Of a DNA stretch of 33,172 bases, positions 19,178 through 26,307 are shown one piece after another. The notes under the pieces were generated by a model, which was given only the letters and a program-made list of their open reading frames with translations, was not told the origin of the DNA and did not search any database. The position numbers were made by a program, and so were the translations under genes. Source of the stretch: Gemmatimonadota bacterium (GTDB taxonomy: Bacteria > Gemmatimonadota > Gemmatimonadetes > Longimicrobiales > Gaopeijiaceae); NCBI GenBank assembly GCA_003248075.1, contig QJYK01000317.1:1-33172 (forward strand), written 5' to 3'. Position 1 is the first letter of the stretch. Every line of letters starts with the position of its first letter.

Positions 19178-19462
19178 ATGAACAAGTCCGATCTAGTGGA
19201 CGCCCTCGCTGACGCCACCGGCATGACCAAGGCAGACGCCGGTCGCGCGGTGGACGCGATCTTCAGCGCTGACGGCGGCATCATTGCCAAGACGCTGAAG
19301 GGGGGCGGCCGCGTCCAGATCACGGGCTTCGGGACCTTCGAAGCGAAGCACCGGAAGGCGCGCATGGGCCGGAATCCCCGGACCGGCAAGGCGATTCCGA
19401 TTCCCGCGTCGAAGACTCCGGGGTTCAAGGCGGGGAAGGGTCTGAAAGACGCGATCAGCTAG
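19178..19462 (+). CDS. HU-family DNA-binding protein
   Basis: 94-aa nucleoid protein that bends and compacts DNA as a dimer. Full-length match: MNKSDLVDALADATGMTKADA helical N-terminus, GGRVQITGFGTFEAKHRKARMGRNPRTG DNA-binding arm, and a C-terminal PGFKAGKGLKDAI helix. The start has a strong AAAGGAG. It is transcribed alone, with a GC-rich hairpin downstream. Confidence 0.96.
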   Translation: MNKSDLVDALADATGMTKADAGRAVDAIFSADGGIIAKTLKGGGRVQITGFGTFEAKHRKARMGRNPRTGKAIPIPASKTPGFKAGKGLKDAIS

Positions 19463-19507
19463 GGTACGCTCCCCTTCAGGCATTCCTGGCCCTTGCGGGA
19501 ACGGACG

Positions 19508-19534
19508 GGGCCGCGGCGCAGGGCGCCGCGGCCC
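19508..19534. terminator. 12-bp hairpin after the HU gene (convergent junction)
   Basis: GGGCCGCGGCGC and GCGCCGCGGCCC form a perfect 12-bp stem with loop AGG, followed on the + strand by TTCGTC. It lies between the HU stop and the stop of the convergent DEAD-box-like gene, so it probably serves both. It is a very stable stem with only a poor U-tract. Confidence 0.7.
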
Positions 19535-19579
19535 TTCGTCATCTCGGTACGCCCGCACCCGGCCCGAGTCCGGCGCGGC

Positions 19580-21139
19580 TCAGGTGTCCGTGGGCCTGCG
19601 CACCCCGCGTCCTCGTCCTTTCGGGGACGGTGGTCGCCCGGGCCGCCGATCGTAGTCCGCGCGGACGGCACGCCCCCTTATGGACGTCCCGTTCAGCGCG
19701 GCGATCACCTTGGCAGCGACTGGTTCCTGGACCTCGACCAACGTGTGCGAGTCCCTGATGTCGATCTTGCCCACGTTGGAGCCGGGAATGCCCGCCTCTC
19801 CGGTGATCGCACCGAGGAGGTCCTTGGGCGTCAGTCCCTCCTTGCCCCCGACGCCGAGGAAGAGTCTCACCCACGGTGTGGGTGCTGCGTGCTCACGGGT
19901 CGGAGCAGAGGGCGCTGCCGGGGCGGTGGCCGGGGTCCTGGCGCGCAGCAACGCGGCGGCGGCTGCGGCCACCTCGGCGGGGTCGAACCGTTCGAAGAGG
20001 GGCTCCAGCAACAAGAGGTAGGCCGCCGTGTCCTCCTCCTCGACGGCTGTCGCCAGCATCTCCCGGAAGGCCGCGGCGTCGCTGGGCGGTTGGCGGGTCG
20101 CGGGAAACCCCTCCAGCGTGAAGCCGGTCCGTCGGGCGATGTCCCGGAGGTGGGTCATCTCGCGCGGAAGCGTGAGAACCACGCCCGAAGCCCCGTGACC
20201 GTGCCGCCGGTCCAGCGAGTCCCTGTCCGCAGGCACGTCGAAGCTCAGGACGACGACACCCTCAACGTGCTCCGCCGCGGCTCGCGACTCGAGCTCCGCC
20301 ACGCCGAGCCACACCGGCGTGCTCGAATCGCCGGGAGCCCCCGCCGTGTAACCGTGGAGGGTGAGGTAGTCCCCCACGTCGGCAGCCCGGTCGTCGCTCC
20401 CGAAATAGACCAGCGCGTGTCGTGCCTCGTTCTCCAGCAGCTCGGCGACGGTCGCCAGGAGCGCGGCTTCTTTGGGCTCGGACACGACACGGAACCGGAT
20501 CGAGCCCCGGTCCGGCGACCCGTCGTCCTGGCCGTCGGAGGGGCGAGGTGGCACCGTCGCCGCGCGCCGGGCGTGACGCTCGACGAAGCTCGTGACGCCC
20601 GGCGTCACCGGAAGCGCAAGTACCACCCGCTGACAGTCCTTCGGAACCCATTCGAGCAAGGCCTCGACGGGCTCCAGCCCCTCCAGGCGCTCGAGGCGGT
20701 CCGCCTGATCAACGACCAGCGTCTTCACTCCGGCGAGCGCCAGGTCTCCGGCCCGCACGCGCGCCATGACGTCGGTCGGCGTTCCGAACAGGACGTTCGC
20801 CCGGGTGGGCAGGGCCCACGTCGAGCCGAGGGCGGAGACGGTGTGACCTGTGGTGAAGGCCAGCCGTTGCAGGGACTCGGCCATCCGCTCGGCCCCTTCG
20901 GCCATGGGCGTGAGCACCAGCACCGCCGGGGTCCCGGCCTCGGCGTCGAGCGCATCGAGCGCCGCGCTGCCCCACGCGGCCAGCGTCCCGCTACCCGGCG
21001 ATGCGGCGATGAGGAGATTGTGGCCCCGTCGGACGACAGGGACCGCGGCCCGTTGGATCGAGGTCGGTACCTCGATGCCCTCGGCCGCGAGGGACTCGAC
21101 CATCTCGGCCGAGAGCCCGAGGTCTTCGAACGAATCCAT
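19580..21139 (-). CDS. Degenerate DEAD-box helicase-like protein with DbpA-type RNA-binding domain
   Basis: 519 aa, laid out like a DEAD-box RNA helicase but without the ATPase residues. The Q motif is kept (VPTSIQ, Q29). Motif I reads ASPGSGTL (46-53), so the P-loop GKT lysine and threonine are replaced. Motif Ia is LTPMAEGA, not PTRELA. Motif II is DQAD (144-147), losing the catalytic glutamate. The SAT motif becomes LPV (175-177). The second RecA domain has no recognisable motif V or HRxGRxGR. In contrast the C-terminal DbpA-like RNA-binding domain is well formed (about 423-497, WVRLFLGVGGKEGLTPKDLLGAI shortened here to its core GVGGKEGLTP) and is followed by a basic Arg/Gly/Pro tail. The frame is intact, so it is a maintained pseudoenzyme, not a pseudogene. 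It is the third gene of a minus-strand group. An RNA-binding or ribosome-assembly scaffold role is inference. Confidence 0.85.
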   Translation of the reverse strand: MDSFEDLGLSAEMVESLAAEGIEVPTSIQRAAVPVVRRGHNLLIAASPGSGTLAAWGSAALDALDAEAGTPAVLVLTPMAEGAERMAESLQRLAFTTGHTVSALGSTWALPTRANVLFGTPTDVMARVRAGDLALAGVKTLVVDQADRLERLEGLEPVEALLEWVPKDCQRVVLALPVTPGVTSFVERHARRAATVPPRPSDGQDDGSPDRGSIRFRVVSEPKEAALLATVAELLENEARHALVYFGSDDRAADVGDYLTLHGYTAGAPGDSSTPVWLGVAELESRAAAEHVEGVVVLSFDVPADRDSLDRRHGHGASGVVLTLPREMTHLRDIARRTGFTLEGFPATRQPPSDAAAFREMLATAVEEEDTAAYLLLLEPLFERFDPAEVAAAAAALLRARTPATAPAAPSAPTREHAAPTPWVRLFLGVGGKEGLTPKDLLGAITGEAGIPGSNVGKIDIRDSHTLVEVQEPVAAKVIAALNGTSIRGRAVRADYDRRPGRPPSPKGRGRGVRRPTDT

Positions 21140-21166: not shown

Positions 21167-21469
21167 TCAGCCGGCCTCGCCCGAGCCAGGACCGCCCGCG
21201 TCGCCGGGCTCGTAGGGAAGGTGGTTGAGGAACTTCTGGATCTCGTAGTCGATGCGAGACGTGCGCAGCCGGTCGGTGGACGCCACCACCTCCGTGTACG
21301 GTCCGTGTCGATGAGCGGTGAGCGTCACCGTGCCCTCCGCGCCCGAGTACGTGGCTCCGTGGGACGAACCCTTCGTCCGTGCCAAGCCGACCATGTCGGG
21401 GAGCATCCCCTCAGCCCGCTCCAGAACGTCTTTCGGCGGCAGGGCGGTCTTCCGCTGGTATCCGGCCAT
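21167..21469 (-). CDS. Conserved-looking 100-aa protein, unknown function
   Basis: I do not recognise a family. The N-terminal half (QRKTALPPKDVLERAEGMLPD) looks helical. The middle has beta-like segments (GTVTLTAHRHGPYTEVVAST), followed by a helical RIDYEIQKFLNHLPYEPGD and a Gly-rich end. There is no signal peptide, membrane segment or metal motif. It sits between the cysteine-less DsbA-like gene (28-bp gap) and the DEAD-box-like gene (27-bp gap) on the same strand, so all three are probably one operon. The start is ATG 21469; no clear Shine-Dalgarno is visible. Confidence 0.65.
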   Translation of the reverse strand: MAGYQRKTALPPKDVLERAEGMLPDMVGLARTKGSSHGATYSGAEGTVTLTAHRHGPYTEVVASTDRLRTSRIDYEIQKFLNHLPYEPGDAGGPGSGEAG

Positions 21470-21497: not shown

Positions 21498-22079
21498 TCA
21501 GGAAGGGCAAAGAAAGGTGCGCAGGCGGTCCCGGATGTGGAAGCCCCGCAGCACACGTCCGTTCGAGGCCAATGCGGGTGGGTCGGTGATCCCCAGGGTG
21601 GCGGCCTCCCGTCGGGACCTTGCGACAGACCCTGCGAAGCGGTCGACGTCCAACACCGCCTTGGCCTCGGTCACGTCGAGCCCCAGGCCGCCGGCGACGC
21701 GCAGGAGGACGTCCACGCGACCGATGTCCAAGCCCTGGCGGAGGAACGCCTCGAACAGGGCCCGATGAGCCCGGGCACCCATTCCCTTTTCCTCGGCGTG
21801 CAGACGGAGCTCGTGCGCCTTGCGCGTCCATGGAATGATGGGTGGATCCGCGAGTTGCACGCCCACACTCGCGGCCAGTGCGACCCCCTCCTGCCACCGG
21901 GCCCGCCACCACACGGATCCGGGATCGATCAAGGGCTCGGGCGGTGGTCGGAGCTCATAGGGAGCTCGGCTCACCGGTCCGATGTCGTTGCCGTATTCGA
22001 GCGCCGAGACCTGGAGCTCGAGCATCCAGGAGATCGGATCCGCATAGTCGAGGTAGAGCACCGCGGGTGACACGATCAT
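21498..22079 (-). CDS. DsbA-like / HCCA-isomerase-like thioredoxin-fold protein lacking CxxC
   Basis: 193 aa with the thioredoxin-fold start VLYLDYADPISWMLELQVSAL, a helical insert (about 60-150) and a late cis-proline segment ITDPPALASNG, as in DsbA/FrnE-type proteins. The usual CPxC is DPIS here, so it cannot act as a dithiol oxidoreductase. Related proteins with Ser at this site are 2-hydroxychromene-2-carboxylate isomerases and kappa-class GSTs, which use bound glutathione. No signal peptide, so cytoplasmic. ATG 22079 is the chosen start; the same frame is open upstream but runs antisense to the aminotransferase. First gene of the three-gene minus-strand group. Confidence 0.78.
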   Translation of the reverse strand: MIVSPAVLYLDYADPISWMLELQVSALEYGNDIGPVSRAPYELRPPPEPLIDPGSVWWRARWQEGVALAASVGVQLADPPIIPWTRKAHELRLHAEEKGMGARAHRALFEAFLRQGLDIGRVDVLLRVAGGLGLDVTEAKAVLDVDRFAGSVARSRREAATLGITDPPALASNGRVLRGFHIRDRLRTFLCPS

Positions 22080-22130
22080 GGAACGGAAGCTGACGGTAGG
22101 GCGGGCTGTCGGCAAACGGATGTCGCTTCC

Positions 22131-24814: not shown

Positions 24815-25044
24815 GAGGAGGAGAACCGGGTGCGATCGCGGGTGGCGGGCACGTCGACGCCTGGGCGCGGCGAGCGGATGAAGGTGCGCGTCACACCCCC
24901 CGTCCGCAAACGGGACGGCCCTCCCCTTTCCCTTTGGGTTTCCGGCGCCAGGGAGTACCTTTCGCGCGGCCACGCGTGCGCCGACGGGATCGGCGGCCGG
25001 AGACCCCCTCCCTTCGCGGCGGCCGGAGCCATTCGGAGCATCCT
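24815..25044. other. Divergent intergenic region, no gene
   Basis: 230 bp between the LMW phosphatase and the DEAD-box helicase, expected to hold both promoters. A 6-bp inverted repeat CCGTCC/GGACGG lies at 24900-24918. I see no convincing -35/-10 pair and no small gene. Confidence 0.5.
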
Positions 25045-26307
25045 GTGGAAGCCGTCGATTTTCGCGATCTGAACCTGTCCGAGGAAAGACTCGCCGCCGT
25101 GGAGGCGTTGGGTTGGACCCGTCCGACACCGATCCAGGCCAAGGCTATTCCCTCGGGCCTGGCCGGAAGGGACGTCGTGGGAATCGCCCAGACGGGAACA
25201 GGAAAGACCGCTGCCTTCATGATCCCGGCCCTCGAGCGCCTGCGCGGCGGCCAGGGGCTGCAAGTGCTCGTGCTGTGCCCGACGCGCGAGCTCGCCCAAC
25301 AGGTCGCCGAGGACGCGGCGGCGCTGGCGCTTGGCACCGGCGTTCGTGTCGAGTCCATCTTCGGCGGCGTGGGCTATGGTCCCCAGATCGAGGCGCTTCA
25401 GCAGGGCTTCGAGGTGATCGTGGCGACGCCCGGCCGCTTCATCGACCATCTCCACCAGAAGCGGGTCGATCTGTCGACGGTCCGGTACCTCGTTCTCGAC
25501 GAGGCGGATCGGATGCTCGACATGGGTTTCCGGCCCCAAATCGAGCAGGTGCTGCGCGGCCTGCCGTCCGAGCGCCAGACGATGCTGTTCAGCGCGACGA
25601 TGCCCCATGGGGTCCACGACCTGGCCCTGCGCATAACCCGAGACGCAGTCTGGATCGAGGCTGCTCGCGCAGGGACGACGGCCGAGGGTATCGAAGAGGC
25701 ATTCTACTCGGTGAAGCCGGAGAAGAAGCCCGATCTGCTGCTCAGGCTCCTCGACGACCCCGAGTGGGACCAGGTGCTGGTGTTCACACGCACGAAGGCG
25801 GGGGCGGACGTCCTGGACGCACGCCTCCAGCGCGAGGGCATCAAGGCCGACGTCCTGCACTCGGACCGACAGATGAAGCATCGCACCCGTGCCCTGGATC
25901 GCTTCGCCACGGGGAAGGTCCGGGTCCTGGTCGCCACGGACATCGCCCAGCGCGGCCTGGATGTGGAGGGGATCAGCCACGTCGTGAACTACGATGTCCC
26001 CCTCGACCCGGAGGACTACGTGCACCGCATCGGGAGGACCGGACGCGCGGGTGCCACCGGCACCGCCGTGACGTTCGTGACGGCCGCCGACCTCGGGGCC
26101 ATGAAGACGCTGGAGCGTAGGCTCGAGCGCAACGTGGAGCGGGTGCACCTGCCGGAGTTCGACTACGCGGGCGCGCCACAGACCGAACGGCGCTCCGCCG
26201 CACGCCGCGGGAGCAAGTCCCGCTCCCCGCACGGCATGGGCTCGCGATCCGCGGACGAGCTCACGGCGGAGGAGCTGGCGGAGCTGCTGAGGCTCGGCGG
26301 TGACTGA
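25045..26307 (+). CDS. DEAD-box ATP-dependent RNA helicase (RhlE-like)
   Basis: 420-aa RNA helicase with all motifs intact: Q motif TPIQ (Q31), GTGKT (51-55), PTRELAQQ (80-86), GG, TPGR, DEAD (152-155), SAT (183-185), ATDIAQRGLDV and HRIGRTGRAG (from H327). The C-terminal extension of about 60 residues is basic (RRSAARRGSKSRS) and ends in a short acidic helix. Unwinds short RNA duplexes in ribosome assembly or mRNA turnover. The GTG at 25045 is chosen because GGAG lies 6 bases upstream and the family core starts at VDFRDLNLSEE; the frame is open to 24934 with unlikely Arg-rich sequence. It contrasts with the inactive DEAD-box-like protein 4 kb upstream. The 138-aa gene follows 49 bp later. 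Confidence 0.94.
   Translation: MEAVDFRDLNLSEERLAAVEALGWTRPTPIQAKAIPSGLAGRDVVGIAQTGTGKTAAFMIPALERLRGGQGLQVLVLCPTRELAQQVAEDAAALALGTGVRVESIFGGVGYGPQIEALQQGFEVIVATPGRFIDHLHQKRVDLSTVRYLVLDEADRMLDMGFRPQIEQVLRGLPSERQTMLFSATMPHGVHDLALRITRDAVWIEAARAGTTAEGIEEAFYSVKPEKKPDLLLRLLDDPEWDQVLVFTRTKAGADVLDARLQREGIKADVLHSDRQMKHRTRALDRFATGKVRVLVATDIAQRGLDVEGISHVVNYDVPLDPEDYVHRIGRTGRAGATGTAVTFVTAADLGAMKTLERRLERNVERVHLPEFDYAGAPQTERRSAARRGSKSRSPHGMGSRSADELTAEELAELLRLGGD

Follow-up and report, generated by a model that had tools for sequence, protein, structure and literature searches.

A conserved DEAD-box pseudo-helicase with a DbpA-type RNA-binding domain, predicted to have lost ATP hydrolysis, in the order Longimicrobiales

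Introduction

CsdA of Escherichia coli is an active cold-shock helicase, and conserved pseudo-kinases are known in bacteria. A search of open-access papers found no description of a bacterial DEAD-box pseudo-helicase. A described protein of this kind is eukaryotic; Utp25/Def, of the SSU processome, has been called the first fully validated pseudohelicase (PMC9539457). In YxiN and Hera, guanine is read via main-chain groups (I436, G437 and I439 in YxiN), and Thermus thermophilus Hera, which has an RNA-binding domain (RBD), contacts double-stranded RNA with its basic C-terminal tail (PMC3695512). Here we describe P0002, the product of a gene found in a 33,172-nucleotide stretch of Gemmatimonadota DNA (the window), and compare its family with these systems.

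Results

The gene and its domains

P0002 is a pseudo-DEAD-box helicase of 519 amino acids with a DbpA-type C-terminal RBD, encoded on the minus strand between 19580 and 21139, an assignment drawn from PF00270, PF03880, orthologues, motifs, tree, dN/dS and fold. A sequence-only reading of this DNA had placed a full-length open frame here without giving a strand, and the frame was confirmed. The protein matched PF00270 (DEAD) above the cut-off (E 2.3e-13) and PF03880 (DbpA RBD) over residues 425–494 (E 1.9e-23; 82.7 bits against a cut-off of 25.6), and scored 128.6 bits in the DbpA equivalog model NF008744, below its cut-off of 524. As P0002 still matches DEAD-helicase models, such matches call for caution in annotation. 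The core (residues about 1–399; 19943–21139) comprises RecA1 and RecA2 and keeps the Q motif glutamine, with motifs I, Ia, II, III, V and VI not working, as judged from the motif alignment, the AlphaFold2 (AF2) model and the RecA1 match. It is followed by the RBD (residues about 422–498; 19646–19876), delimited by the PF03880 match and conserved columns, and by a basic tail rich in R, K, G and P (residues 499–519; 19583–19645), recognised by its net charge. A frameshift or assembly artefact was ruled out because P0002 aligned end to end with its orthologues, at up to 63% identity.

Loss of the catalytic motifs

Related genomes supplied 20 intact DbpA-type and 18 RhlE-type helicases, with which the motifs of P0002 were compared. 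The changes that had been read from the sequence were all present in the alignment. The Q motif was kept, Q29 being found in P0002 and in 47 of 47 Longimicrobiales members aligned. The P-loop had changed from GKT to GTL (SPGSGTL in P0002 compared to ATGTGKT in the paralogues), so that its glycines were kept and its lysine was gone; motif II had changed from DEAD to DQAD, with loss of the glutamate; motif III had changed from SAT to LPV; and HRxGRxGR was absent, the HRIGRTGR of the paralogues being replaced by DRRHG and a deletion. The losses extended further than that reading had noted, as motif V (TDVAARGLD) and motif Ia (PTREL) were also gone and only the TP of motif Ib (TPGR) was left.

Across the family, none of 63 pseudo-helicases combined the lysine of the P-loop with the glutamate of motif II, both of which DEAD-box ATPases need, whereas 23 of 23 intact paralogues had both. 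The glutamate was retained by one member and absent from 62. The lysine, within GKT, was kept in 12 members, eight in family f3 and four in f9. No member analysed from f1 (the family of the window) or f2 had it, and most of them carried T, V, L, A or I in its place. The entire P-loop was missing in some distant members of the class, for example L188 and L192. On average, 0.38 of motif columns and 0.25 of non-motif columns were kept, a comparison that does not tell catalytic from structural loss. Twenty positions, including W108, H313, H330, N483, R493 and D495, were conserved in the pseudo-helicase family and rare in intact paralogues; new constraints therefore arose, and the changes are not mere decay.

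Distribution

Orthologues, counted at E ≤ 1e-28, were found in 56 of 59 relatives from the order Longimicrobiales (phylum Gemmatimonadota); those without one were two incomplete genomes (G008 and G032) and an f2 genome (G037). A scan of public genomes, built on one peptide pattern specific to Longimicrobiales and with good coverage of Gemmatimonadota only, gave 94 relatives with an alignment as query and none with P0002 alone. The 80 loci listed from these 94 were nearly all named Gemmatimonadota, Gemmatimonadales or Longimicrobiales. One locus (L130), labelled 'Gammaproteobacteria bacterium isolate Ww582', encoded a Longimicrobiales-type pseudo-helicase with 43% identity; this genome is probably misnamed or misbinned. 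Full-length but more divergent relatives were found in other families of the class. Matches in the class outside Longimicrobiales include intact helicases (e.g. L194, L195 and L196), so the class tallies are not counts of pseudo-helicases.

The motif losses were common to all orthologues examined, which rules out a strain-specific decay. The observation that the sequence-only reading had named as speaking against it, close homologues in which GKT and DEAD are intact, was looked for and not found.

Phylogeny and order of loss

A FastTree phylogeny of 104 sequences, rooted with RhlE-type helicases, placed the 63 pseudo-helicases in one clade that was sister to the 23 intact DbpA-type helicases, and the P0002 family appears to be a paralogue of a Gemmatimonadota DEAD-box helicase of DbpA/CsdA type. 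Support was 1.0 for PS+DD, 0.78 for PS, 1.0 for Longimicrobiales and only 0.35 for f2+f3; on these sequences, the class members outside Longimicrobiales would join the pseudo-helicase clade with moderate support (0.78). An IQ-TREE working tree, calculated without support values, had the same topology. Substitution depth was about three times greater in the pseudo-helicases than in the intact paralogues (mean 1.51 compared to 0.57). The near-complete absence of the motif II glutamate, set against the twelve members that keep the lysine, indicates that loss of the glutamate and motif VI preceded that of the lysine. If never regained, the lysine was lost at least three times (in f1/f2, in other class lineages and in L180 within f9), or four times should f2 and f3 be sister groups; the tree does not decide between three and four.

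Selection

The dN/dS ratios of close pairs were estimated by the Nei-Gojobori method for the core and the RBD separately and, as this is a simple estimator and the genomes are apparently GC-rich, they are better compared with each other than taken as absolute values. The core of the pseudo-helicases gave ratios of about 0.06–0.4, with the RBD mostly lower; core and RBD values were 0.103 and 0.032 (L004–L211), 0.116 and 0.041 (L022–L201), 0.100 and 0.047 (L010–L212), 0.178 and 0.088 (L028–L203) and 0.114 and 0.024 (L043–L045). One f3 pair (L042–L033) was loose in core and RBD alike (0.41 and 0.42). In most pairs of intact paralogues the RBD was at or above the core, with core and RBD values of 0.131 and 0.144 (L068–L064), 0.118 and 0.161 (L053–L068), 0.320 and 0.310 (L054–L061) and 0.212 and 0.289 (L060–L055). 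Both parts of the pseudo-helicase are thus under purifying selection, and the RBD, which is the looser part in the intact paralogues, is now the more constrained.

Predicted structure and charge

An AF2 model based on 54 orthologues had a mean pLDDT of 90.4 and consisted of RecA1, RecA2, a helical linker and the RBD. The pLDDT was about 95 across most of the RecA core and lowest in the linker near 409–418 and in the tail. Both RecA-like domains were present, and two-domain cores aligned with DEAD-box cores at Z 26–30 in VIA-align 2; the large rmsd of these matches was due to domain orientation. RecA1 alone was best matched by 5gju (Z 30.5, rmsd 1.6, 197 residues), and the top full-length matches in Foldseek were E. 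coli DbpA.

The RBD had been read as intact. This held for its fold but not for the beta1-alpha1 loop, which is basic in intact paralogues and contains E or D in the Longimicrobiales pseudo-helicases. The RBD was near neutral in Longimicrobiales members (mean net charge -0.4 compared to +2.75 in intact paralogues) and the core strongly acidic (-22 compared to -4), whereas the C-terminal tail had a mean net charge of +7.6 in 47 Longimicrobiales members and +0.75 in intact paralogues. V456, G457 and I459, which we matched to the guanine-reading residues of YxiN, were conserved, as was the G-A-x-x-G-E helix. The lost basic loop, near-neutral RBD, basic tail and very acidic core suggest that RNA is no longer gripped by the core and is contacted, if at all, through the RBD and tail; a near-neutral RBD without the basic loop might bind RNA weakly or have a protein as its ligand.

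Genomic neighbourhood

Two genes precede that of P0002 on the minus strand. The first encodes a DsbA-fold (HCCA isomerase/GST-kappa-like) protein (21498–22094; PF01323) without a CxxC motif, and is followed after 28 bp by the gene for a conserved 100-amino acid protein without a name (21167–21469), which ends 27 bp upstream of the pseudo-helicase. This order is conserved, and the three genes are a putative conserved operon. Scans for promoters and terminators found nothing. The 100-amino acid protein, which is conserved across the class, was encoded at 72 of the 80 listed public loci, in most cases no more than about 450 bp upstream of where the pseudo-helicase starts, and in 108 of the 121 genomes of a phylum sample, where outside Longimicrobiales it was often away from the pseudo-helicase. 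It had no match in Pfam or NCBIfam; its model (pLDDT 88) has a predicted beta-alpha-beta4-alpha fold, and H37, H53 and H55 were invariant. Fold matches to Chk1 KA1 and Aha1-like proteins were weak (best E 5.5e-3), which is too little for naming. Of 70 sequences of the DsbA-fold protein, only 5 contained CxxC at any position; most orthologues had DPxS at the site of the DsbA motif, and a few divergent members had a single cysteine there.

Convergent to P0002 is a gene for an HU-family DNA-binding protein (19178–19462, plus strand; PF00216, E 3.7e-31); of 75 neighbourhoods, 39 had this gene close to the pseudo-helicase. A strong GC-rich hairpin without a T run lies between the two genes on the minus strand (19466–19585; -70.6 kcal/mol, z -2.6). 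The further neighbours are a divergent aminotransferase, then a fructosamine kinase, an LMW phosphatase and a RhlE/CshA-type helicase. A single PADLOC match in a search for defence genes (PsyrT, E 0.024) was read as chance.

The intact DEAD-box helicase that had been reported about 4 kb from P0002 is real. It is the RhlE/CshA-type protein at 24934–26307 on the plus strand, for which CshA was the best model (E 4e-125), followed closely by those for DbpA, RhlE and CsdA, each score being below its cut-off. Such a helicase is syntenic within the family and was present in 32 neighbourhoods, and in f1 loci it lay on the opposite strand, 4.0–8.6 kb away. Among the 32 f1 genomes with a detected DbpA domain, 27, that of the window included, had it only at the pseudo-helicase locus and five had two; three f1 genomes, 60–82% complete, had none. 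The second domains (L052, L059, L066, L067 and a G021 locus, C84:3584-3796) sat in intact DEAD-box paralogues in four of the five cases. The lack of a second DbpA domain in most f1 genomes suggests that the active paralogue has been lost in f1.

Discussion

The proposal that P0002 is a maintained pseudo-enzyme predicted to have lost ATP hydrolysis is borne out by recurrent motif losses, dN/dS well below 1 and a preserved fold; the same losses with ratios below 1, suggested beforehand as the mark of a conserved pseudoenzyme if seen across genera, were seen across genera and families. Judged from its sequences, the family is almost certainly conserved and catalytically dead. Loss of the ATP machinery throughout the class, while selection kept the rest, makes an RNA-binding scaffold the most likely identity of the protein, rather than a motor. 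We consider it likely that ATP hydrolysis has been lost while the two-RecA fold and RBD were selected as such a scaffold. RNA binding itself, to which the RBD and basic tail point, is probable, and a role as a ribosome or rRNA assembly factor is put forward only tentatively. The RBD and tail would bind structured RNA, perhaps rRNA, and the acidic, nucleotide-independent core, having lost RNA clamping, could serve as a docking surface for proteins or as a spacer. The whole protein would then act as an RNA-binding scaffold or placeholder and not as an ATP-driven remodeller.

Other explanations bear on different parts of this evidence. The threefold substitution depth could be expected of a decaying gene heading for loss, but nearly all complete orthologues are full-length, dozens of columns are conserved and the dN/dS result already contradicts decay, which we regard as having a negligible chance of being correct. 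The sequence-only reading had also offered a competitor, and a dominant-negative competitor or regulator acting on an active DbpA/CsdA paralogue at the same rRNA site would be in keeping with the active paralogues that carry this type of RBD and coexist with the pseudo-helicase in most genomes of f3 and in some of f1 and f2. However, the paralogues and the pseudo-helicases have diverged in the RBD loop, and with the pseudo-helicase as the sole DbpA-domain protein in 27 of 32 f1 genomes there is in most of them no active DbpA-type helicase to compete with; this part of the reading is disfavoured and very unlikely.

A nucleotide could instead be held by the Q motif and the P-loop glycines and drive a conformational change without hydrolysis. 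Q29, G49 and G51 are present in all 47 Longimicrobiales members used and GKT is retained in the eight f3 and four f9 sequences, in which lineages ATP binding without hydrolysis may matter. Such a switch is nevertheless unlikely for the family, given the replaced lysine in most f1 and f2 members, the loss of the cleft-closing motifs V and VI, and class members such as L188 and L192 that have no P-loop at all. It is similarly doubtful, if by a hair less so, that RNA is no longer the ligand and that the RBD-like domain has become a protein- or metabolite-binding module, making P0002 an adaptor for its DsbA-fold and 100-amino acid operon partners; the acidic core, the near-neutral RBD and the conserved putative operon would suit an adaptor, but the kept guanine-reading backbone frame and G-A-x-x-G-E helix and the gained basic tail fit RNA better.

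Within the RNA-binding scaffold reading, a fuller history can be sketched as a possibility that we hold with some doubt. The family would occur almost throughout Longimicrobiales and beyond that order in the class, and would have lost motifs II and VI before the P-loop, which disappeared afterwards in several lineages. In most f1 genomes it would have outlasted all active helicases of DbpA type, acting without ATP as an RNA-binding assembly factor or scaffold with the 100-amino acid protein as partner. This decay is graded: f3 and f9 sequences retain GKT, those of f1 and f2 lack it, and some distant class members have no P-loop at all. This makes it testable which helicase functions need ATP and what an ATP-free DEAD-box fold does.

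The order of RecA1, RecA2 and a PF03880 RBD is shared by P0002, E. coli DbpA (7pli, 7pmq) and Bacillus subtilis YxiN, and the guanine-reading backbone positions are common to them; DbpA and YxiN differ in being active helicases with a basic GGKK-type loop. The loop of the E. coli CsdA/DeaD RBD (5b88), VGRDDGV, resembles the VGERDGV of the pseudo-helicase family, and the RecA1 of CsdA/DeaD (5gju) is the best RecA1 match of P0002, whose score lies below the CsdA equivalog cut-off. T. thermophilus Hera also combines an RBD with a basic C-terminal tail, but it is active as a helicase, is dimeric and has a dimerisation domain of its own. Utp25/Def is like P0002 in having the two-RecA DEAD-box fold without catalytic motifs, and unlike it in being eukaryotic, in carrying its extension at the N-terminus and disordered, and in that no DbpA RBD is mentioned (PMC9539457). 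The function of Utp25/Def was tested experimentally whereas the P0002 family is known from sequence and model; the likeness is one of kind and does not imply orthology. With a predicted DEAD-box fold that lacks the catalytic motifs and is kept by selection, P0002 would be a pseudohelicase in the same sense as Utp25/Def.
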